Positions 21,248 to 30,075 of a DNA stretch of 37,824 nucleotides are shown piece after piece. The notes beneath the pieces were generated by a model. That model did no database searches and was not told the DNA's origin. It saw only the letters and a program-made list of their open reading frames with translations. Positions within the stretch are counted from its first letter, which is position 1. Each line of letters begins with the position of its first letter. The position numbers and the translations under genes are program-made. Origin of the DNA: Gammaproteobacteria bacterium (lineage in GTDB: Bacteria; Pseudomonadota; Gammaproteobacteria; Magnimaribacterales; AG-339-G14); the NCBI GenBank assembly GCA_003331625.1, contig QOPF01000001.1, forward strand, positions 231,474 to 269,297. The letters are read 5' to 3'.

Positions 21248-22130
21248 TAAATCAGTAAAACATTTTTTGCTCTTTCTAAAAGAGACTAGAAATTATTCAG
21301 ACCATACTCTTAAGAGTTATAAAAATGATTTAAATAAATTTGATCTTTTTTTAAAAGATAATGAGGTTTCTCAATATTCCGAAATCAATAATTCAACTGT
21401 AAGAAACTTTCTAGGCCTTTATAGAAGAAAAGGCCTCAGTCCAAGAAGTCTGGCTAGGATTTTGTCTTCGTTAAGAAGTTTTTTTAAATTTCTTAAGACT
21501 GAAGGAAACCTATTAAATGATCCTACCGTAGGTATTTCAGCTCCAAAACAAGAATCCTTACTTCCCAAAGCATTAGATACAGATATGATTGATAAGCTCT
21601 TGAATTTTAAGCCTAAAAATTGGATTGAATCTAGAGATAAAGCTTCTATGGAGTTAATTTATTCATCCGGTTTAAGGCTATCAGAACTTTGCTCATTAGA
21701 TTTAAAAGATCTGCTTCTGGAAGAACAAATGTGTCGGGTTTTGGGAAAAGGAAATAAAGAGAGAATTTGTCCAATTGGTTCAAAAGCAATTGAAGCTCTA
21801 GAAGATTGGTTTTCTCATAGAGGTAAAATAGCAAAAGATGACGTAAAGGCAGTATTTGTTAATAAGGAAGGAAACAGATTGGGTCCTCGAACTGTTCAAG
21901 TAAGATTAAAGAAAATAAGCTTAGATAGGGGCTTGCCATATATTCATCCACACATGTTAAGACATTCCTTTGCCACTCATATTTTAGAATCCAGTGGAGA
22001 TTTAAGAGCTGTTCAAGAATTACTAGGACATGCTAACCTTAGTACCACTCAAATCTACACAAAATTAGATTTCCAGCATTTGGCAAAGGTTTATGACAAA
22101 AGCCATCCTCATGCAAAAAATAAAAAATGA
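21231..22130 (+). CDS. xerC: Tyrosine recombinase XerC
   Basis: Site-specific recombinase that, with XerD, resolves chromosome dimers at dif. The 299-aa protein keeps the catalytic set: Arg149 (SSGLRLSE), Lys173, His241 and Arg244 (HPHMLRHSFA), His267 (LLGHANL) and Tyr276 (IYTKLD). The start must be the TTG at 21231: a stop codon lies immediately before it in frame and the next possible start would cut into the SAM-like N-domain. It overlaps DUF484 by 17 nt and the HAD gene by 4 nt. The place after dapF-DUF484 is classical for xerC rather than xerD. Confidence 0.96.
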   Translation: MKSEISKSVKHFLLFLKETRNYSDHTLKSYKNDLNKFDLFLKDNEVSQYSEINNSTVRNFLGLYRRKGLSPRSLARILSSLRSFFKFLKTEGNLLNDPTVGISAPKQESLLPKALDTDMIDKLLNFKPKNWIESRDKASMELIYSSGLRLSELCSLDLKDLLLEEQMCRVLGKGNKERICPIGSKAIEALEDWFSHRGKIAKDDVKAVFVNKEGNRLGPRTVQVRLKKISLDRGLPYIHPHMLRHSFATHILESSGDLRAVQELLGHANLSTTQIYTKLDFQHLAKVYDKSHPHAKNKK

Positions 22131-22825
22131 ATATTAAAGCCGTTACTTTTGATTTAGATGATACTTTGTGGCCTCTTAGAGAAGTTATTATCCATGCTCA
22201 TAAAGAATCCAATAATTGGCTCATTGAAAAATATCCTGAAATGAAGAATGTTTTATTTACTGAACAGGAACAAAAAATGTGGCAAACGCTGATTTCAAAA
22301 GATGGCACCTTAAGACATAAACTTTCCGAATTACGAATAAAAGTTATTGAAACTCTTTTGCTAGAAAACGGTATAGAAGAAAATGAAGCTAGTTCTTCGT
22401 CGAAAACGGCGTTTGATATTTTTTTAAACCTCCGTCACGACATAAAATATTTCGAGGGTACTCTTGAAGTATTGGAATCTTTAAAAGAAAAATATGTTTT
22501 AGGAGTTTTAACAAATGGTAATGCTAGTATTGAAACTTTAAAAATTGATCATTTATTTGATTTCTATTTGAACGCTGAGATGGTGGGTGATAGCAAACCA
22601 GGTGCCGTAATGTTTGAAGAAGCTCTAAAGATTACCGATTTAAAACCTGAAGAAATTTGTCATATTGGCGATCATCCAGAAAATGACGTTGAAGCAGCTA
22701 TAACAATTGGGATGAGAGCCATTTGGCTTAATCTTTTAAATGCTGAATGGCCTAAAGATAAAAATTTTGAGCCAATCGAAGTTACTTCTTGGTATGACTT
22801 AGAGGAGAAAATTTCTAATCTATAA
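22127..22825 (+). CDS. yigB: HAD-superfamily phosphatase (YigB-like)
   Basis: HAD hydrolase of 232 aa with motif I FDLDDTLWP (nucleophile Asp), motif II LTNGN, a lysine in GDSKPG and motif IV GDHPENDVEAA. YigB of E. coli dephosphorylates FMN and related compounds, and the gene follows xerC there as it does here. The substrate is inferred from this position. It overlaps xerC by 4 nt (ATGA) and its 3' end overlaps the convergent cytochrome c5 gene by 6 nt. Confidence 0.9.
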   Translation: MNIKAVTFDLDDTLWPLREVIIHAHKESNNWLIEKYPEMKNVLFTEQEQKMWQTLISKDGTLRHKLSELRIKVIETLLLENGIEENEASSSSKTAFDIFLNLRHDIKYFEGTLEVLESLKEKYVLGVLTNGNASIETLKIDHLFDFYLNAEMVGDSKPGAVMFEEALKITDLKPEEICHIGDHPENDVEAAITIGMRAIWLNLLNAEWPKDKNFEPIEVTSWYDLEEKISNL

Positions 22826-23170
22826 AGCGTTTAACATATATTGAACTGCTTCTTCTAACTCAGACGAAGTGCAATTCATACACAATCCCATAGCGGGCAT
22901 ACCACGGAGACCGTTTTTTACACTGTGAGTTAGCTCTTCAAGAGTTTTATTTTTTCTTTCTCCCCAAGATGAAGAATTACCAAAAATTGGAGCTCCTGCT
23001 AGTCCTGCTTGATGGCATACAGAACAGGAAATCTCATAAACATTTTTTCCATTTCTAATTTCACTTGAAGAATTTTGGGTCAGGACAGCTTCTGAAAAAA
23101 AAATGAAAAGAAAAAAAATAAGACTTAATTTTATAAAATTTACATTTTTATAATCTAGAAAGATATTCAT
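22820..23170 (-). CDS. Cytochrome c5-family monoheme cytochrome
   Basis: Periplasmic electron carrier of 116 aa. A hydrophobic signal or anchor segment spans about 14-30. The heme site is CSVCH at 49-53 and the axial Met is in RGMPAMG (Met91 likely). A second cysteine pair, Cys97 and Cys100 in GLCMNC, is the hallmark of the c5 group. The ATG at 23170 overlaps the blue copper gene by 23 nt, so the two are co-transcribed and probably exchange electrons. Unlike the c5 proteins I have in mind, it lacks the ERI-x-P leader before the heme domain; that element is found on the copper protein instead. Confidence 0.92.
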   Translation of the reverse strand: MNIFLDYKNVNFIKLSLIFFLFIFFSEAVLTQNSSSEIRNGKNVYEISCSVCHQAGLAGAPIFGNSSSWGERKNKTLEELTHSVKNGLRGMPAMGLCMNCTSSELEEAVQYMLNAL

Positions 23171-23753
23171 CTAGTCTTTCTTGATTCATTACAAAAGTTG
23201 ATTTCAATGAACTTGCAGCTGATTGAATCTCATTTAGATTTACTGCTTCACCGACTTGAATAACACCAATCATAGCCATCATTGCATGAGGCGTGCAGTT
23301 GTAAACATAAACGCCTTCCGTATCAAACGTAACACTAATGTTTTCATTTATTGCTCCGTTCCAACTACTAGCATTGCTTGGAATCATATTCGGCAAAGAG
23401 GCCGAATTATGCATAGGATCTACCAGAACAAAATTAACAGTATCTCCAACAGAAACCTTAATGACCGCTGGTTCAAATACCATACTGCCATCTTCTCCTG
23501 CATTAAGCATTTTTACTTCATGAACATTACCTTCAGAAAGTTTGACTTTGTTAGCTGTCGAAGGCGCAGCTGAAGTATTATTATTTATAGCGACTTTATA
23601 ACCCGGTCCTGAAGTTTCTATTCCGCAGTCATCGGTACTAAGGCAGACACTTGCAAAAGATGAAATTCTTTCTGATATCGCTTCTTCTCGCATATCCTCC
23701 ATAAAAGAATTAGAAGAAATTAAAAGCATGGAAACTAATACTAAATTTTTCAT
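23148..23753 (-). CDS. Pseudoazurin-like blue copper protein with N-terminal extension
   Basis: Type 1 copper protein of 201 aa. The C-terminal domain (about 77-170) is pseudoazurin-like: it opens HEVKMLN, continues VFEPAVIKVSVGDTV, and has the four copper ligands His115, Cys153, His156 and Met161 at exactly the pseudoazurin spacing (38, 3 and 5 residues apart). An N-terminal signal (about 1-16) is followed by a helical AISERISS segment and a Cys37/Cys43 pair (VCLSTDDCG), then a low-complexity linker rich in Asn, Ser, Thr and Ala. About 30 residues follow the copper domain. It is co-transcribed with a cytochrome c5, a plausible redox partner. A TATAAT lies so close to the ATG that the mRNA may be leaderless. 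Confidence 0.88.
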   Translation of the reverse strand: MKNLVLVSMLLISSNSFMEDMREEAISERISSFASVCLSTDDCGIETSGPGYKVAINNNTSAAPSTANKVKLSEGNVHEVKMLNAGEDGSMVFEPAVIKVSVGDTVNFVLVDPMHNSASLPNMIPSNASSWNGAINENISVTFDTEGVYVYNCTPHAMMAMIGVIQVGEAVNLNEIQSAASSLKSTFVMNQERLDEYLSRL

Positions 23754-23863: not shown

Positions 23864-25180
23864 CTAGAGTCTTTTGCCAATTTCTATTTTTTTTGTATTT
23901 GAGTCAAATAGAATTTCTACTTGAGAAGTTTCTAGATATTCTTTTAATAAATCATTTCCCACTTTGAGTTGTAAATGCCATTCATGATCTTTTGCCACTT
24001 CGTCAAGAACACAACCTTCTCGATAAAGGCTTGCCCTTTCCGCTGAACAAAGATGAGGTACGGATACCCAACCACTGAATAGACCATTATTTGTTAGCTC
24101 TATAATTCTTTCTTTTAAAAAATTAATGCCTTGTTTTTTTTCAGCAGAGATAAAAACCTCTTCAGGATTTTGTATCTCTAATTCTTTGAGCTTAGAATCA
24201 GATAAGTAATCTACTTTGTTGTTTACAATGAGTTGTGGAATGTTATCAATCTTTAAATCTTTCATGATTTTCATCACTTCCTTTTGTTTTAAGGTTTTTT
24301 CAGGATCATTGATATCTACCAGATGTAATAATAAATCTGCAGATCTAAGGTCATCTAAAGTAGTTTTGAATGATTCAACTAATTCAGTAGGAATTTCTGA
24401 AATAAATCCAACCGTGTCTGTAAAAAGAATAGCCCTACTTCCTGGGCTTAGATTTTTTCTAGTTACTGAATCTAGCGTTGCAAACAATTGATCTGCTTTA
24501 TACTCATTGCCTCCAGTTAAAGCATTAAACAAAGTTGTTTTTCCAGCATTGGTGTATCCAACTAAAGCTACTATTTTGTTTTTGCCTTTTTTTCGAGCAT
24601 ACCTATTTAAGGATTTTTGATTATGGCTTTTTTCTAATTTCTTTTTTAAGGATTTAATCCTATTGCCAATCAATCTTCTATCTGTTTCAAGTTGAGTTTC
24701 TCCTGGGCCACGAAGACCAATTCCTCCTTTTTGCCTTTCTAAATGAGTCCACCCTCGAACCAATCTGGTAGATAAATGAGTTAATTGCGCCAACTCAACT
24801 TGTAATTTTCCAACGTGACTGAAAGCTCTTTTAGCAAAAATATCTAAGATCAATCCAGTTCTATCCAAAACTCTTGTTTTTAAATATTTTTCAATATTTC
24901 TTTCTTGAGAAGGAGAAAGGGAATGGTTAAAAATGACTAATTCAATTTGATTTTTATGAATCTCTTCTTTGATTTCTTCTAATTTACCTTTTTGAATAAA
25001 ATATCTTGGCGACGCTATTTCTTGCTTTCCAATAACTTCGTTAAGAATATTAGCTCCAGCAGATCTTGCTAATTCTCTAAACTCAGCAAAAGAATTGTCA
25101 AAATTTAGAATTCTTTTTACCTTGGTAGTTTCTACTTGAACTAAAAGCGCTTTTTCAGAAAAATCTTTTTTTTGAGGCAT
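23864..25180 (-). CDS. hflX: GTPase HflX
   Basis: Ribosome-associated GTPase that splits stalled or heat-damaged 70S ribosomes. The 438-aa protein has the N-terminal HflX domain with the glycine-rich segment GGIGLRGPGETQLETDRR (about 152-169), then the G domain: P-loop GYTNAGKTT at 208-216, DTVGFI and NKVD. The start ATG shares one base with the methyltransferase stop (TAATG). It is away from hfq/miaA, its usual neighbours, at the end of the leftward run from cytochrome c4. Confidence 0.96.
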   Translation of the reverse strand: MPQKKDFSEKALLVQVETTKVKRILNFDNSFAEFRELARSAGANILNEVIGKQEIASPRYFIQKGKLEEIKEEIHKNQIELVIFNHSLSPSQERNIEKYLKTRVLDRTGLILDIFAKRAFSHVGKLQVELAQLTHLSTRLVRGWTHLERQKGGIGLRGPGETQLETDRRLIGNRIKSLKKKLEKSHNQKSLNRYARKKGKNKIVALVGYTNAGKTTLFNALTGGNEYKADQLFATLDSVTRKNLSPGSRAILFTDTVGFISEIPTELVESFKTTLDDLRSADLLLHLVDINDPEKTLKQKEVMKIMKDLKIDNIPQLIVNNKVDYLSDSKLKELEIQNPEEVFISAEKKQGINFLKERIIELTNNGLFSGWVSVPHLCSAERASLYREGCVLDEVAKDHEWHLQLKVGNDLLKEYLETSQVEILFDSNTKKIEIGKRL

Positions 25181-26229
25181 TAAGCTTTAACTTCAAAAAC
25201 CATATTTGTACCAGTTCTAGCAGACTCTCTAACATGATTAAAACCTGCAGAATTTAATACTTCTTTAAGTCTTTTTGGGCCCGCTTGAGCACCCAAACAA
25301 AGACCAACCTCTTGAGCTCTAGAAGTAGGAACACAAACTACAGTAGAAAAGCCATAAGCCAAGCCTCCAAAGGTATTGAGATTATCTTCTAAATTATCTC
25401 CTGCAGCTGGTTCAACCAACATAAAAGTTCCATCATCAGAGAGAACATTCTTGATATGTTCTGCTACGCCAACAGGATCTCCCATGTCATGAAGAGCATC
25501 AAAAATACAAGCAAAGTCATATGACTCTTTAGGAATATCTCTGGCATCCGATACATGAAATTCTATATTTTTGAGGCCTAGTTCCTCTGCTCTTTTACTT
25601 GCTTCTTCTATGGAAGGAGCATGAAAATCATATCCATGGACTGTTGAGTTAGGGTAGGTTTGCGCCATAATTATTGTTGTGGAGCCAAGTCCGCATCCAA
25701 TATCAGCAATTTTTACACCGCCTTTAAGTTTTTCGTCAACTCCATCTAAAGATGGGATCCAATTAGTAATTAAATTTCCTACATAGCCTGGTCTGAAAAA
25801 TCTATCTGTTCCACAAAAGCAACATAAATGATGTTCTCCCCAAGGCCTTCCCTTTCCAGATTTAAACGTTTCAACTGCTTTTTCATGTTCTGCATACTGA
25901 CCTACAATCGCTTGAAAATATCCTTGAAGACAAGTTGGCTGACCATCTTGAGCAAAAACTGCCGACTGTTCTGGGGTTAAAAAAAATTTTTCTTCGGCTG
26001 AATCATAAGTTACGTATCCATTTGCTGCGTTTGAAGACAAAAATTCTCTTAGATATCTTTCATCTAAATTTGCTGCTTGCGCAATTTCTTGAGTTGTTGC
26101 CGGACCAAGTTTATCCATAGTGACGTAAACTTCTGATTGATCTCCGATGTAAGCAAGCAAAAGTCCCACTGCTCCAGCAGCATCTCCAATGACTTTTTGA
26201 GTAAGTTGACTTAATTTTTCAGCATCCAT
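25180..26229 (-). CDS. SAM-dependent methyltransferase with N-terminal winged helix
   Basis: Class I methyltransferase of 349 aa, substrate unknown. An N-terminal winged-helix domain (about 1-95: TTQEIAQAANLDERYLREFL) is followed by a linker with a cysteine cluster, CCFCG at 136-140, and a Rossmann domain with SAM motif I ADIGCGLGSTT (about 175-185). The layout is that of the Rv2258c-like group and of O-methyltransferases of secondary metabolism. A strong AAGGAG site precedes the ATG. It lies 57 bp downstream of the CoA-transferase gene and shares a base with hflX, so it may belong with either. Confidence 0.85.
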   Translation of the reverse strand: MDAEKLSQLTQKVIGDAAGAVGLLLAYIGDQSEVYVTMDKLGPATTQEIAQAANLDERYLREFLSSNAANGYVTYDSAEEKFFLTPEQSAVFAQDGQPTCLQGYFQAIVGQYAEHEKAVETFKSGKGRPWGEHHLCCFCGTDRFFRPGYVGNLITNWIPSLDGVDEKLKGGVKIADIGCGLGSTTIIMAQTYPNSTVHGYDFHAPSIEEASKRAEELGLKNIEFHVSDARDIPKESYDFACIFDALHDMGDPVGVAEHIKNVLSDDGTFMLVEPAAGDNLEDNLNTFGGLAYGFSTVVCVPTSRAQEVGLCLGAQAGPKRLKEVLNSAGFNHVRESARTGTNMVFEVKA

Positions 26230-26286
26230 GTTTTTTCTCCTTATACTTTAAATAAGTTTAGTCTTCTAAATTAACTATGAAAAGGT

Positions 26287-27477
26287 TCATATAATTTCTT
26301 TATCTTCAAGATTTTTGATGTTTTCTTCATCAAAATTCAACCAATCTCTTAAGATACTTTTAGTGTGTTCTCCAAGATTCGGTGATCGATTAAATTCTTC
26401 GGAATGATTTGAAATTTTTACTGGATTACCTGGCATTTTCACAGGGGCGCCATTTTCTTGGAGTACCTCGACAATCATATTACGTTTTAATAAATCCTGA
26501 TCTTGGAAAGTTTCAGACAAACTATTAATTGGTCCACATGGCACTCTGTTTTCTTGTAAAAGACTTAACCAAAATTCAGTCTTATTTGTTAAAAAAATAC
26601 TCTGGATAGTCTTATCTATGCTTTCTCTATTCTTTAATCTGCCTTTTCTTTCTTTGTTTTCATCTGTATCAAGCTCATTTAAATTTAAAGCCTTAACTAA
26701 ATTAGGCCAAAAGTCTTCTGCAACAACTCCAATTTGGATAAAGCCATCTTTTGTTTGATAAGAGTTGAATGGAACATGATTCATGTGTTGGTTACCAATT
26801 GGCTCTGGATCCTCGCCCGATAAAAAATGCATAGTAGCCATATAAGTTAATAAACTTACCTGAGTATCCAACATAGAAATATCAACGTGCTCGCCTACCC
26901 CGTGAGTATCTCTTGAACGTAATGCGCTTAAAATACCAATTACTGCATAAAGTCCTGCCCCAAGGTCAGCTATTGGAATGCCAGATTTTACTGGATTTTC
27001 TTTATCTATACCGGTGATAGACATAGCCCCTCCGTAACCCTGTATGAGATTATCGTAAGCAGGTCGGTTTATTTCTGTATCTCCAAAACCACTAATCGAG
27101 CAGGTAATAATTTTCGGATTTACTTTGGCAAGCTGTTTATGATCTATTCCAAGTCGTTTGGTTACACCTTGGCTAAAATTATCTACTACTACATCAGCAG
27201 CATTTACTAATTTCAAAAATAGTTCTTTGCCTGAATCTGATTTTAGATCTAATTCAAAGCTTTTTTTATTTCTTGCTAAAGTGAGGTGATAGGCGCCTAC
27301 TCCATCCAATGAATACTTAGGATCATCTTTGAGTAAATTTCTAGTGATATCGCCTTTTTTTGGTTGTTCAATTTTTACAACTTCAGCACCCAAATCTGCC
27401 AAAATCATGGTCGTGTATGGACCTGCTAGCATATGAGTTAAATCAAGAACTTTTATGCCGGTAAGAGATTGCTTCAA
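26287..27477 (-). CDS. Class III (CaiB/BaiF) CoA-transferase
   Basis: Moves CoA between carboxylic acids. The 396-aa protein has the family N-terminus (GIKVLDLTHMLAGPYTTM), ADLGAEVVKIEQP, and the catalytic aspartate as Asp171 in GIPIADLGAG. The start is a TTG at 27477, one base after the maoC stop; it is needed to keep the canonical N-terminus and no ATG is available. Next to a MaoC hydratase and a CitE lyase, the likely substrates are C5 dicarboxylates (itaconate, mesaconate or citramalate) with succinyl-CoA as donor. That role is inferred from context, not from residues. Confidence 0.9.
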   Translation of the reverse strand: MKQSLTGIKVLDLTHMLAGPYTTMILADLGAEVVKIEQPKKGDITRNLLKDDPKYSLDGVGAYHLTLARNKKSFELDLKSDSGKELFLKLVNAADVVVDNFSQGVTKRLGIDHKQLAKVNPKIITCSISGFGDTEINRPAYDNLIQGYGGAMSITGIDKENPVKSGIPIADLGAGLYAVIGILSALRSRDTHGVGEHVDISMLDTQVSLLTYMATMHFLSGEDPEPIGNQHMNHVPFNSYQTKDGFIQIGVVAEDFWPNLVKALNLNELDTDENKERKGRLKNRESIDKTIQSIFLTNKTEFWLSLLQENRVPCGPINSLSETFQDQDLLKRNMIVEVLQENGAPVKMPGNPVKISNHSEEFNRSPNLGEHTKSILRDWLNFDEENIKNLEDKEII

Positions 27478-27478
27478 C

Positions 27479-27997
27479 TTAATAATCTATTTTATCGTCT
27501 ACCGCATTTCCTTTGGTCGGAACTAAAGCTGATCTTTTAAAAGATGCGACGACTTTACCATCTTGATTTTTTCCAATGGTTTTTACTGTAACTATTCCCG
27601 CATTTTTCCTCGATTCTGAAAGACGAGTTTCTAATACTTCTGATTCAGCATATAAAGTGTCGCCGACGAACAAAGGGTGCGGTAAGACAATGTCGGTCCA
27701 GCCTAAATTTGCTATGGCTTTTTGGCTTATATCACTCACACTCATCCCAACCATAACAGAAACAGTGAAAGTACTGTTTACAAGATTTTTACCAAATTCA
27801 GTTGCTTTGCCATATTCTTTATCAAAATGTAAAGGATGCGTATTCATTGTTAAAAGGGTAAACCAAGTATTGTCTGATTCGGTAATGGTTCTACCTGGGC
27901 GATGTTCGTAGATGTGACCTACTTCGAATTCTTCAAAGTAACGACCAAATGACTCTCTAAATCTGTTGTTGCCTAATTCTTTGCTAGATTTTGACAT
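27479..27997 (-). CDS. MaoC-like enoyl-CoA hydratase/dehydratase
   Basis: Single hot-dog-fold hydratase, 172 aa. The family motif normally read as G-D-x-N-P-L-H appears as M-N-T-H-P-L-H (Asn52, His54, His57) after an ITESDNTWF segment. This variant is the one I associate with MaoC genes paired with CitE lyases, such as the Rv2499c/Rv2498c pair. Likely substrates are itaconyl-CoA or mesaconyl-CoA. A strong AGGAGG site precedes the ATG, 3 nt after the citE stop, and the CoA-transferase gene starts one base after its own stop. Confidence 0.87.
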   Translation of the reverse strand: MSKSSKELGNNRFRESFGRYFEEFEVGHIYEHRPGRTITESDNTWFTLLTMNTHPLHFDKEYGKATEFGKNLVNSTFTVSVMVGMSVSDISQKAIANLGWTDIVLPHPLFVGDTLYAESEVLETRLSESRKNAGIVTVKTIGKNQDGKVVASFKRSALVPTKGNAVDDKIDY

Positions 27998-28000
27998 GGA

Positions 28001-28828
28001 TTAGTCCTCCTCTTTTTTATCTCCTAAAGATAACTTTAAACGCATAGCTTCGGCGATAGGCTCATCAACCATTTTTCCATCGATCTTGACGGCTCCACCA
28101 TCCATTTTTTGATATTCTTCTAATACTTTTTTAGCCTCTTCTTTTTCCTCTTTGGTAGGTTCAAAAGCATCGTTAATGAAATCTATTTGCGTAGGATGAA
28201 TTGCTGCTTTTCCAGTAAAGCCTAAATTCTTAACTGCCTCAGCTTCTTCTTTCAAGCCCTCTTCATTATCGATATAGAAGAAAGGAGCATCGATTGTAAA
28301 TAAGTTATACATCGCTGCTGCAAGAGCAACTTTGTGTCGAGCATAAAGTAAAGGTTCCCAAGCTAATTTGGATCCCATGCCTGCTGAAAAATCTGCTGCA
28401 CCAAAAAACAACCCTATAACTCCTTTAAAGGCTGCAATCTGTGTGACTGTATCTACTGCTCTTGGAGTTTCAATCAGGGGTACTAATTTATTTTCAAAAG
28501 CAATCATTGGAGCAAGTGTAGCTAGAAAGTCAAAACTTTGTGTTTTCGGTAAAATAATAGCCTCAATTTGACTTTCATAATCTGAGAGCGAATCTATATC
28601 TTGCCTGCCATTTTCGTTCATGGCGTCGTTTACTCTGACAAACAAAGGCTTTGTAAACACGTTTCCTTTTTTTAACAAACCAATTAGCTCTTCTCTGGCA
28701 TCAATTTTTTTATCTTCTGGACATCCATCTTCTAAATCAATAATTAGAGAGCTTGCATTACTATTTAGACCTCTGTCTAAACGATCTAATGTGTGTCCTG
28801 GTATGAAGAGATTGGATTTGTATTGCAT
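28001..28828 (-). CDS. CitE-like acyl-CoA lyase (citramalyl/malyl-CoA lyase family)
   Basis: HpcH/HpaI aldolase superfamily protein of 275 aa with a TIM-barrel fold. Recognisable are the opening SNLFIPGHTLDRLDRGL, the LIIDLEDG strand, Arg65 in FVRVND for CoA-ester binding, and the magnesium ligands Glu120 (LVPLIETPRA) and Asp146 (FGAADFSAG). No citrate lyase alpha or gamma subunit genes lie nearby, so it is not the classical citrate lyase subunit. With the adjacent MaoC hydratase and CoA-transferase, citramalyl-CoA cleavage to acetyl-CoA and pyruvate is the best guess; malyl-CoA is the alternative. It starts 1 nt after dsbA. Confidence 0.88.
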   Translation of the reverse strand: MQYKSNLFIPGHTLDRLDRGLNSNASSLIIDLEDGCPEDKKIDAREELIGLLKKGNVFTKPLFVRVNDAMNENGRQDIDSLSDYESQIEAIILPKTQSFDFLATLAPMIAFENKLVPLIETPRAVDTVTQIAAFKGVIGLFFGAADFSAGMGSKLAWEPLLYARHKVALAAAMYNLFTIDAPFFYIDNEEGLKEEAEAVKNLGFTGKAAIHPTQIDFINDAFEPTKEEKEEAKKVLEEYQKMDGGAVKIDGKMVDEPIAEAMRLKLSLGDKKEED

Positions 28829-28829
28829 A

Positions 28830-29453
28830 TTATTTCCTTTCTAAATTTATTAAGTAATCAACCACATCAAGTAGTTCATTCGTGCCTACATCTCTTGAAG
28901 CTGAAACTTTATACTTGCCATTGACGACAAAAGCAGGGACGCCACGGACTTCGTATTTCAAACCAAAGGTTTCGGCCCTACGAATTTTATTTTTCATTGC
29001 AAACGAATTAAACAATGATTGGTATTTATCTTCACTTACTCCAAAGCTGGCGAAAAAAGGTTTTAATTCTTTATCGGATGTCATCATTCTTTGGTTTGCA
29101 TGAATTGATACAAAAGTATTGGAAATAATTTCTGGTTTCTTAAAGAATTCCGCAGCATAGAATAATTTTGCGTGGGTTTTGGCCATTTCATTCCAGGTAA
29201 TAGGAGAACGCCAAAAATCTACGTTAGAAGAGAGTTTTTTTTCCCAGCTATTTAGTTGGTTTTCTAGACTGTAACAGTGGCCACAACCGAACCAGAAAAA
29301 CTCTATGACTTCTATTTTTTCTGAATCACGAGTAGCAATTGGTTCAGCTAGAATTTGATAATGTTTACCCGCACGATAATCATCAGCAACTATAGAAGTG
29401 CTTATGAAAAATAATGAGATGAAAAAAAATTTTTTAATAAAGTCCAGATACAT
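28830..29453 (-). CDS. dsbA: Thiol:disulfide interchange protein DsbA (CGHC active site)
   Basis: Periplasmic oxidase that introduces disulfide bonds. The 207-aa protein has an N-terminal signal (about 1-23), the active site FFWFGCGHCYSLE (Cys57, Cys60) and the cis-proline loop RGVPAFV (Pro173). The dipeptide between the cysteines is Gly-His, as in eukaryotic PDI, in place of the Pro-His of E. coli DsbA. Its start overlaps the cytochrome c4 gene by 20 nt. Its partner dsbB lies at 33624-34109, beyond engB and polA. Confidence 0.94.
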   Translation of the reverse strand: MYLDFIKKFFFISLFFISTSIVADDYRAGKHYQILAEPIATRDSEKIEVIEFFWFGCGHCYSLENQLNSWEKKLSSNVDFWRSPITWNEMAKTHAKLFYAAEFFKKPEIISNTFVSIHANQRMMTSDKELKPFFASFGVSEDKYQSLFNSFAMKNKIRRAETFGLKYEVRGVPAFVVNGKYKVSASRDVGTNELLDVVDYLINLERK

Positions 29454-30075
29454 AATTCGCTACCGCCCTAATCTCTTCGATGCTAAGTCTTGTGGCAATG
29501 CCTTGCATAATTTTACCGTGATCATCGATTGCCCTTTCACCTGTTTGATAAGCCAATAAACTCGTCACTACGTATTCGGCTTTTTGCCCACCGAGCATTG
29601 GATATTCTGCAGATTCTAAACCTTTGCCAGCTGGACCATGGCAACCTGTGCAGGCTGGAACTCCGGAAGATAAATTCCCCGCTCGATAAATTTTTTGTCC
29701 CAACTCCAGATTTGATTCGTCTGCCTTACCTACTAGAGTAGTTTGCTTGGAATAAAAGGCAGAAACATCTCTTAAATCATCATCGGAATAGTCATTTAAC
29801 AAGCCTTTCATAACTGCGATGACTCTTTCTTCATCTCTGATATGTTCAAGTTGTTCATAAAGGTAGCTTTCTCTTTGCCCAGCAAGAGTGGGCCATTGGC
29901 CAACCACACTATTTCCATCGGCTCCATGACAGGCAACACAAGTTCCAACTAATTTTGAACCTTTTTCGGCATTTCCTCTTTCCATCGGCTTAGCTTCTGA
30001 AGCATCTCCAGAAGATGCAGTGAAAGCACTTACAGAACCAATCAAAAGCGACAAGAATAGTAATTTTTTTATCAT
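29434..30075 (-). CDS. Diheme cytochrome c4
   Basis: Periplasmic two-heme electron carrier, usually feeding cbb3-type oxidases. The 213-aa protein has a signal peptide (about 1-18) and two homologous cytochrome c domains with heme sites CVACH (46-50) and CTGCH (142-146), each followed by a later Met-containing segment (AVMKGLL; KIMQGIA). It is the first gene of the leftward run that continues into dsbA with a 20-nt overlap. The engB/c4/dsbA arrangement matches Pseudomonas. Confidence 0.94.
   Translation of the reverse strand: MIKKLLFLSLLIGSVSAFTASSGDASEAKPMERGNAEKGSKLVGTCVACHGADGNSVVGQWPTLAGQRESYLYEQLEHIRDEERVIAVMKGLLNDYSDDDLRDVSAFYSKQTTLVGKADESNLELGQKIYRAGNLSSGVPACTGCHGPAGKGLESAEYPMLGGQKAEYVVTSLLAYQTGERAIDDHGKIMQGIATRLSIEEIRAVANYVSGLY

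Follow-up and report, generated by a model that had tools for sequence, protein, structure and literature searches.

The window analysed here, a stretch of 37,824 nucleotides (nt) from a SAR86 genome of the Gammaproteobacteria (assembly GCA_003331625.1, contig QOPF01000001.1, positions 231,474 to 269,297), encodes a pseudoazurin that carries, ahead of its copper domain, an N-terminal module (the leader) known mainly from cytochrome c5 proteins. A leader of the same kind is shared by the genes at one locus of SAR86 genomes, and the redox domain behind it (the head) has changed repeatedly between copper and haem proteins. We posit, with a probability of about 0.58, that the leader is a portable docking or tethering peptide of periplasmic electron carriers and that the redox heads at this SAR86 locus are exchangeable.

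A cytochrome c5 leader on a pseudoazurin

The central features of the window, with lengths in amino acids (aa), are the following.

23148..23753, minus strand: leader-pseudoazurin gene, 201 aa (open reading frame; TIGR02375 above cut-off; PF00127 match)
23700..23753, minus strand: signal peptide, approximately residues 1-18, with a putative cleavage site (inspection; congeners end in an AxA-like motif right before DMREE)
23589..23693, minus strand: leader module, residues 21-55, MREEAISERISSFASVCLSTDDCGIETSGPGYKVA, with cysteines C37 and C43 (profile and matrix matches)
23520..23588, minus strand: low-complexity linker, residues 56-78 (gappy, variable stretch in a 19-row alignment)
23151..23519, minus strand: pseudoazurin copper domain, residues 79-201, ligands H115, C153, H156 and M161 (TIGR02375, alignment, PDB matches)
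22820..23170, minus strand: leaderless cytochrome c5 gene, 116 aa, with its ATG within the pseudoazurin gene (open reading frame; PF13442)
23148..23170, minus strand: 23-nt overlap of the pseudoazurin and c5 genes (same offset in six genomes of genus g273)

An earlier note, made from the sequence alone, had placed both frames and their overlap in this way and had named the four copper ligands, and on these points it proved accurate. The 201-aa protein scores 137.2 bits against TIGR02375 over residues 82-200 (curated cut-off 109.85), and the four residues, which we take to be the type 1 ligands of a predicted copper site, are invariant in the 19-row alignment, window included. Among the named-genome relatives of the protein, 14 of 19 are SAR86 records. 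Pseudoazurins of known structure (1BQK, 1PAZ and others) align only from window residue 77-80 onward, which means that more than 70 residues, comprising signal peptide, leader and linker, precede the copper domain; the protein thus departs from the typical form by some 60 extra residues between signal peptide and copper domain. The 116-aa product of the overlapping gene belongs to the class I cytochromes c and is of c5 type, with a CXXCH motif (PF13442, E-value (E) 4.6e-15); by inspection it has its own signal peptide and, as the note had said, no leader.

No Pfam model covers the leader, the sole match being RuvA_N below its cut-off (E 0.19). The motif shared more widely is [ED][RN][IL]xPxGx[VI], to which the window leader (R29, C37, C43) adds a cysteine pair; its register is kept, with S and A where most leaders have P and G. 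That this stretch is a c5-type leader, as claimed in the note, is borne out by a score matrix derived from the leaders of 16 c5 proteins in other genomes, of which one belongs to the SAR86 order. The window leader scores 19.6 on this matrix, a value that 20,000 shuffles of its N-terminal stretch failed to reach; the other two pseudoazurins chosen for the shuffle test, L013 and L015, score 25.4 and 21.2, again unequalled in 20,000 shuffles of each. The window leader also matches profile A4 over positions 1-35 with E 1.1e-19, a profile in which it is itself one of 12 rows.

The leader is widespread on c5 proteins. With the window c5 as query, matches were found in 132 of 185 genomes of the class, and a leader-type N-terminus, read by eye, precedes a linker at 16 of 30 fetched c5 loci. 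A combined leader profile of 23 rows, seven of them from pseudoazurin leaders, was searched against 369 genomes of the class, and 70 of about 150 listed matches were examined (the high-ranking G175, G031 and G282 being left out). Of these 70 loci, 64 have a c5 head by simple pattern and three (L218, L222, L233) a c5-like head with a variant pattern; the others are two SAR86 pseudoazurins and, in G350 (L221; L282 3742-4425, minus strand), a c551-type head, a fourth kind, with the c551 structure 1DVV as best PDB match. Pseudoazurins matching their own profile at E <=1e-10 occur in 49 of the 369 genomes, 22 of these above its cut-off. When the leader profile was run on 30 pseudoazurin loci, all three from SAR86 carried the leader and none of the 27 from elsewhere did; leader-pseudoazurins outside SAR86 (G287 and the named records L019, L020 and L023) were found by other routes. 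Since the leader is common on c5 and carried by only some pseudoazurins, it is mainly a c5 trait. In a search of the phylum, 29 of 239 genomes match the leader at E <=0.01, of which 28 belong to the same class and one, with the match in a 792-aa frame, lies outside it.

The leader-bearing c5 proteins exist as the note had said, and the extension is common to SAR86 pseudoazurins rather than unique to the window protein. The part of the claim that did not hold concerns the cysteines. A pair is present in the leader at 117 of 118 SAR86 loci compared with only 7 of 64 c5 leaders across the class, and a disulfide therefore cannot be the core of leader function. What precedes the leader, judged by eye, can be a signal peptide, a lipoprotein-like anchor or a membrane anchor.

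Two records outside SAR86 combine a lipoprotein-like leader-pseudoazurin with a following leaderless c5 that is also lipoprotein-like (L020 2905-3920 and L023 2824-3839). The former is a Cellvibrionales record, and the latter, titled Flavobacteriaceae yet very like L020, is probably a mislabelled bin.

One SAR86 locus, several redox heads

A leader profile for the SAR86 order picks out a single gene in each of 115 of 151 genomes, the one exception being G446, where a 19-aa frame gives a further, weak match. The 36 genomes lacking a match include incomplete assemblies and genomes of family f2, two of which (G377, G385) have a diverged c5 leader when read. The loci read number 118, made up of the 115 matches and of G377, G383 and G385, whose leaders fall short of E 0.01. 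All 118 share a position: an open reading frame that we take to encode a HAD hydrolase lies -9 to 554 nt past the leader gene, nearest of the marker genes examined, and 47 of the 53 loci from families f2 and f166 display the full order EngB, c4, DsbA, leader gene, HAD.

Following the leader across these genomes, as the note had proposed, revealed three kinds of head in SAR86, in addition to the c551-type head of G350. Heads were called by pattern, and the name c554/c4-type rests on PF00034 and PDB matches. Pseudoazurin alone stands behind the leader at 57 loci, pseudoazurin with a downstream leaderless c5 (the tandem) at 17, c5 at 33 and a c554/c4-type cytochrome at 11. The tandem, window included, occurs in genera g1, g273, g275 and g282, and the c554/c4-type heads are confined to g277, g278 and g290. 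Copper and haem forms are both present within each of genera g1, g276, g281, g282, g283 and g284, and family f1 is copper-headed in all genera except for part of g1. Single-chain copper-c5 fusions, the existence of which the note had left to be checked, did not appear in the 118 loci by pattern search.

A second contrast between copper and haem comes from family f40 (genus g41), a small-genome lineage outside SAR86, in which G287 has a leader with a pseudoazurin-like domain (L280 3128-3799) and G039 a leader with c5 (L281 3186-3671), both behind EngB-c4-DsbA. Both leaders give weak profile matches, at E 0.04, and were judged by eye, and the G287 copper domain scores 95.4 bits, under the TIGR02375 cut-off.

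The gap between leader gene and HAD frame measures 221-530 nt in the 11 c554/c4-headed loci, wider than in most others. Many SAR86 genomes also have a second, shorter pseudoazurin elsewhere (frames of about 136-183 aa, for example G283:C1:901911-902291), in which the match starts past the leader.

Repeated change of head

A quickly built tree of the neighbouring HAD protein, a single linked gene, requires no fewer than 14 changes between copper and haem, compared with a minimum of 29 and a mean of 35.6 in 200 shuffles. Genera g1 (support 100) and g283 (99) each form a single group holding both states, as does g282 (99), which includes a long branch that was flagged; support is lower for g281 (84) and g284 (38), and the members of g276 do not group together. 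Genus labels, which are independent of this tree, give six changes if every genus is one clade.

DNA was compared in eight same-genus pairs with different heads. In the g282 pair, G411 (tandem) and G399 (leader-c5) share 75% identity up to and into the leader and realign from c5 on at 90.5% over 846 nt, with an offset of 510 nt (84% over the 204 nt of c5 DNA alone). The 510-nt block that distinguishes the two alleles lies between leader and c5 and holds the copper domain; it is either an insertion in G411 or a segment lost by the sister allele. Together with six genomes of the window's genus that encode leader and c5 in one protein, this bears out the note's suggestion of a module swap or a split fusion. 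Identity in the pairs from g276 (two), g281 and g284 passes through the leader, breaks off and returns past the gene, and in the two g283 pairs a long upstream match gets no further than 10 nt into the leader or ends far ahead of it.

When signal peptide plus leader was compared for the 54 genes of the six mixed genera, every gene had its nearest different-head leader within its own family and 44 had it within their own genus; for 40, the best partner of the same genus with the other head beats the best partner of another genus with the same head. At family level one leader type thus bears different heads, but at the level of the genus the two may at times move as a unit. The stronger formulation, in which leaders track the genus and not the head, was toned down, given that comparison of the leader alone favours the genus in only 19 of 54 genes.

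The window's genus and its leaderless c5

The six genomes of genus g1 with leader and c5 in one protein (G499, G467, G448, G455, G458, G436) have this gene at the same locus, at which they have no copper domain. The tandem allele of G372 and the leader-c5 allele of G448 align at the DNA level with an offset of 482 nt, so that the arrangement by position is as in g282. The c5 parts of these two alleles are only 64% identical in DNA and 62% in protein, compared with 89% for the neighbouring HAD protein. A description of the g1 alleles as differing only by the copper block was consequently dropped, as the 81% identity over 875 columns that had suggested it comes mostly from the HAD gene. In g1, import of a head or fast change of the leaderless c5 is as likely as a simple split. 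Faster evolution of the leaderless c5 was looked for within genera and no clear difference was seen (1.05, 0.68 and 0.63, compared with 0.22-1.35 for leader-c5, as ratios to the neighbour gene).

In the window and in six g273 genomes alike, c5 begins at an identical position within the pseudoazurin gene. Seven congeners of the window have a leaderless c5 without an ATG at this position, and a TTG right behind the pseudoazurin stop is, as judged by eye, their probable start, so that no frameshift is needed. At L183 and L192 (g282) the leaderless c5 is in the pseudoazurin frame with a TAA between the two and likely TTG starts after it.

Probable partner complex and proposed mechanism

The chain named 'Cytochrome C5' in PDB entries 8SMR and 8SNH, which we take to be the bc1-cbb3 supercomplex of Pseudomonas aeruginosa, bears the leader DDAIAKRLEPVGKVCVQGKEC, followed by an Ala/Gly-rich linker and a c5 domain, and the same entries contain a cytochrome c4 chain. 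One protein with a c554/c4-type head aligns to 8SMR_L (E 8.7e-4) across residues 21-92, a stretch that takes in the leader. Across 185 genomes of the class, cytochrome c1 was found in 56 of 58 genomes with a leader match at E <=0.01 and in 94 of 127 others (p 1.8e-4, a statistic that ignores shared ancestry). The SAR86 genomes G000, G176 and G031 all have c1 and gave no match to ccoN, the marker used for cbb3. For these cases bc1, or bc1 with c4, would be the best-fitting partner rather than a particular oxidase, and the class-wide link of the leader with c1 rather than cbb3 makes bc1 at least as likely a candidate as an oxidase. The note had suggested a docking or tethering element shared by carriers of one oxidase, and such a role would fit both the leader-c5 of 8SMR/8SNH and the single COX1 gene that nine of the ten searched SAR86 genomes possess, whatever their head (the window's own genome has two partial matches on two contigs).

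We propose that the leader lies at or near the mature N-terminus, probably starting with a short helix, and that in SAR86 it is probably closed by a disulfide, with CX5C spacing in the majority. Its role would be to tether the carrier to bc1, or to an assembly of bc1, c4 and oxidase, and a flexible linker would let the redox head swing. Because the leader does the docking, heads of unrelated fold could serve the same site, namely pseudoazurin with copper and c5 or c554/c4-type cytochromes with haem, and metal supply or drift would decide which head a lineage keeps. The window has the tandem allele, with the copper domain between leader and c5 and the c5 left separate, leaderless and overlapping. 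The broader proposal that a portable docking peptide makes gammaproteobacterial carriers modular, and that SAR86 swaps copper and haem heads in response to the supply of iron and copper in the sea, is tentative and in our judgement may well fail.

Evidence against and alternative explanations

Several results speak against docking by the leader and exchange of heads. Fourteen of the 30 fetched c5 loci, the window's among them, have no leader in the stretch read, and c5 can thus work without one. No structure examined displays the leader touching anything, and the AlphaFold model of the window pseudoazurin, made with 18 relatives, is poor, with a mean pLDDT (predicted confidence score) of 51.7 and values below 50 over residues 10-72, leader included. 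The association with ccoN is weak (37 of 58 leader genomes compared with 64 of 127 others, p 0.11, counting as lacking ccoN 12 genomes with only full-length matches far under the cut-off), and the leader as a marker of cbb3 users is accordingly not supported. On the evolutionary side, copper heads cluster by genus in head trees and c5 heads mostly do so; the G448 c5 stands no nearer to the leaderless c5 of its congener (62%) than to c5 from other genera and families (65-71%, the highest figure being to G442 of family f183); a starred branch of the c5 tree separates the two g1 groups; and 30 of the 54 leaders, compared alone, favour a same-head partner from another genus, with 5 ties. That a DsbA gene adjoins the leader gene in f40 and at most loci of f2 and f166 would fit a role in maturation.

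The alternative that survives best, and which we regard as a serious contender at clearly less than even odds, concerns the evolutionary part of our reading and not docking. It holds that ancestral SAR86 had a leader-pseudoazurin followed by c5, and that lineages passively lost either the c5 or, in frame, the copper domain. The tandem is extant at 17 loci in four genera, with a lipoprotein-like counterpart in L020 and L023, and a single block between leader and c5 distinguishes G411 from G399; given the clustering of heads by genus, an old tandem sorted among lineages may also account for some of the pattern. Yet both states occur without a visible tandem in g276, g281, g283 and g284, in g1 the c5 behind the leader resembles c5 of other families at least as closely as it does the leaderless c5 of a congener, and the 11 c554/c4-type heads require a separate replacement.

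Allelic exchange of the whole stretch of leader and head between SAR86 genera of one family, with the leader co-adapted to its head instead of being a free module, is unlikely in our view. The similarity of leaders compared alone implies that leader and head may indeed be exchanged together, but the signal peptide plus leader gives the opposite result for 40 of 54 genes, and the presence of the nearest other-head leader within the same family for all 54 argues for one leader type with several heads at that level.

Less probable still is that the leader is kept for secretion and not for docking, as a maturation or export element such as a tag for disulfide-dependent folding or cofactor loading. 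The near-universal cysteine pair of SAR86 leaders and the adjoining DsbA gene would suit such a role, whereas the pair is missing from 57 of 64 class c5 leaders and the leader is found after three kinds of export signal or anchor; haem and copper proteins moreover have different maturation systems.

Chance or convergent likeness of a short N-terminal stretch, for which the brevity of the motif and the many weak matches of a permissive class search (273 of 369 genomes at E <=1) might be cited, is rejected by the shuffle test, by an ungapped register that includes both cysteines and by related leaders on different heads at one shared locus. Assembly chimeras or binning errors joining unrelated genes, conceivable where many genomes are metagenome-assembled or incomplete, are rejected just as firmly by the six concordant g1 assemblies, whose leader-c5 proteins are 94-100% identical to L117, with HflX and HAD flanking in all six and one of them within a 680-kb contig.

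Surroundings of the locus in the window

The source assembly comprises 11 contigs and 1.09 Mb, with the window on contig 1. Neighbouring genes that bear on the locus are listed below.

22127..22825, plus strand: HAD-hydrolase gene, convergent neighbour marking the locus (open reading frame; gene order in 118 loci)
23864..25180, minus strand: gene of what is presumably an HflX-like GTPase, found upstream in g1 and g273, two genera of family f1 (open reading frame; gene order)
28830..29453, minus strand: DsbA-like gene (PF01323), next to the leader gene in the majority of f2 and f166 loci, more distant in the window
29434..30075, minus strand: di-haem cytochrome c4-like gene beside the DsbA gene (PF00034 in two stretches; gene order)

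In the window's lineage several genes (window 23864-30075) separate the leader gene from the DsbA-c4-EngB group. On contig C10 of the same genome, L003 846-1988 encodes an apparent subunit II of a cytochrome oxidase that ends in a cytochrome c domain, presumably of caa3 type, which is a possible acceptor for the carriers.

Significance and comparison with known systems

SAR86 is abundant in the surface ocean. Whether a population carries the copper or the haem allele might be scored in metagenomes and set against iron and copper along ocean sections. The analysis also gives a function to seek in the N-terminal stretch of c5 proteins, which has no Pfam coverage. Since the carrier interface seems to be a separate conserved module, what a complex needs in order to accept a carrier can be asked of the peptide alone. 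A search of an open-access library found nothing joining SAR86 with pseudoazurin and found SAR86 together with cytochrome c5 only in one paper, on Chloroflexi; among the matches listed, no open-access title on cytochrome c5 and pseudoazurin was about a shared leader.

The c5 chain of 8SMR/8SNH resembles the leader-c5 proteins in having the same leader and the same class of c5 head. It differs from the window protein, the leader of which bears a pseudoazurin, and from the SAR86 setting, where the three genomes named above have no ccoN match. Known pseudoazurins share the copper domain and ligands of the window protein, their PDB chains being alignable only to that part. Heads resembling c554/c4-type cytochromes stand behind the leader in three SAR86 genera (best PDB match 2ZZS, c554) and one resembling c551 in G350; the stretches best matched to c554, c4 and c551 chains lie mostly in the head.

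Interchangeable copper and haem carriers are known as whole separate genes, as is the case for plastocyanin and cytochrome c6. PMC13036084 presents these two as copper and haem carriers of unrelated fold that serve the same partners in photosynthesis. The SAR86 locus differs from that pair in that one gene joins the same kind of N-terminal module to different redox domains, with three kinds of head within one order and a fourth elsewhere.

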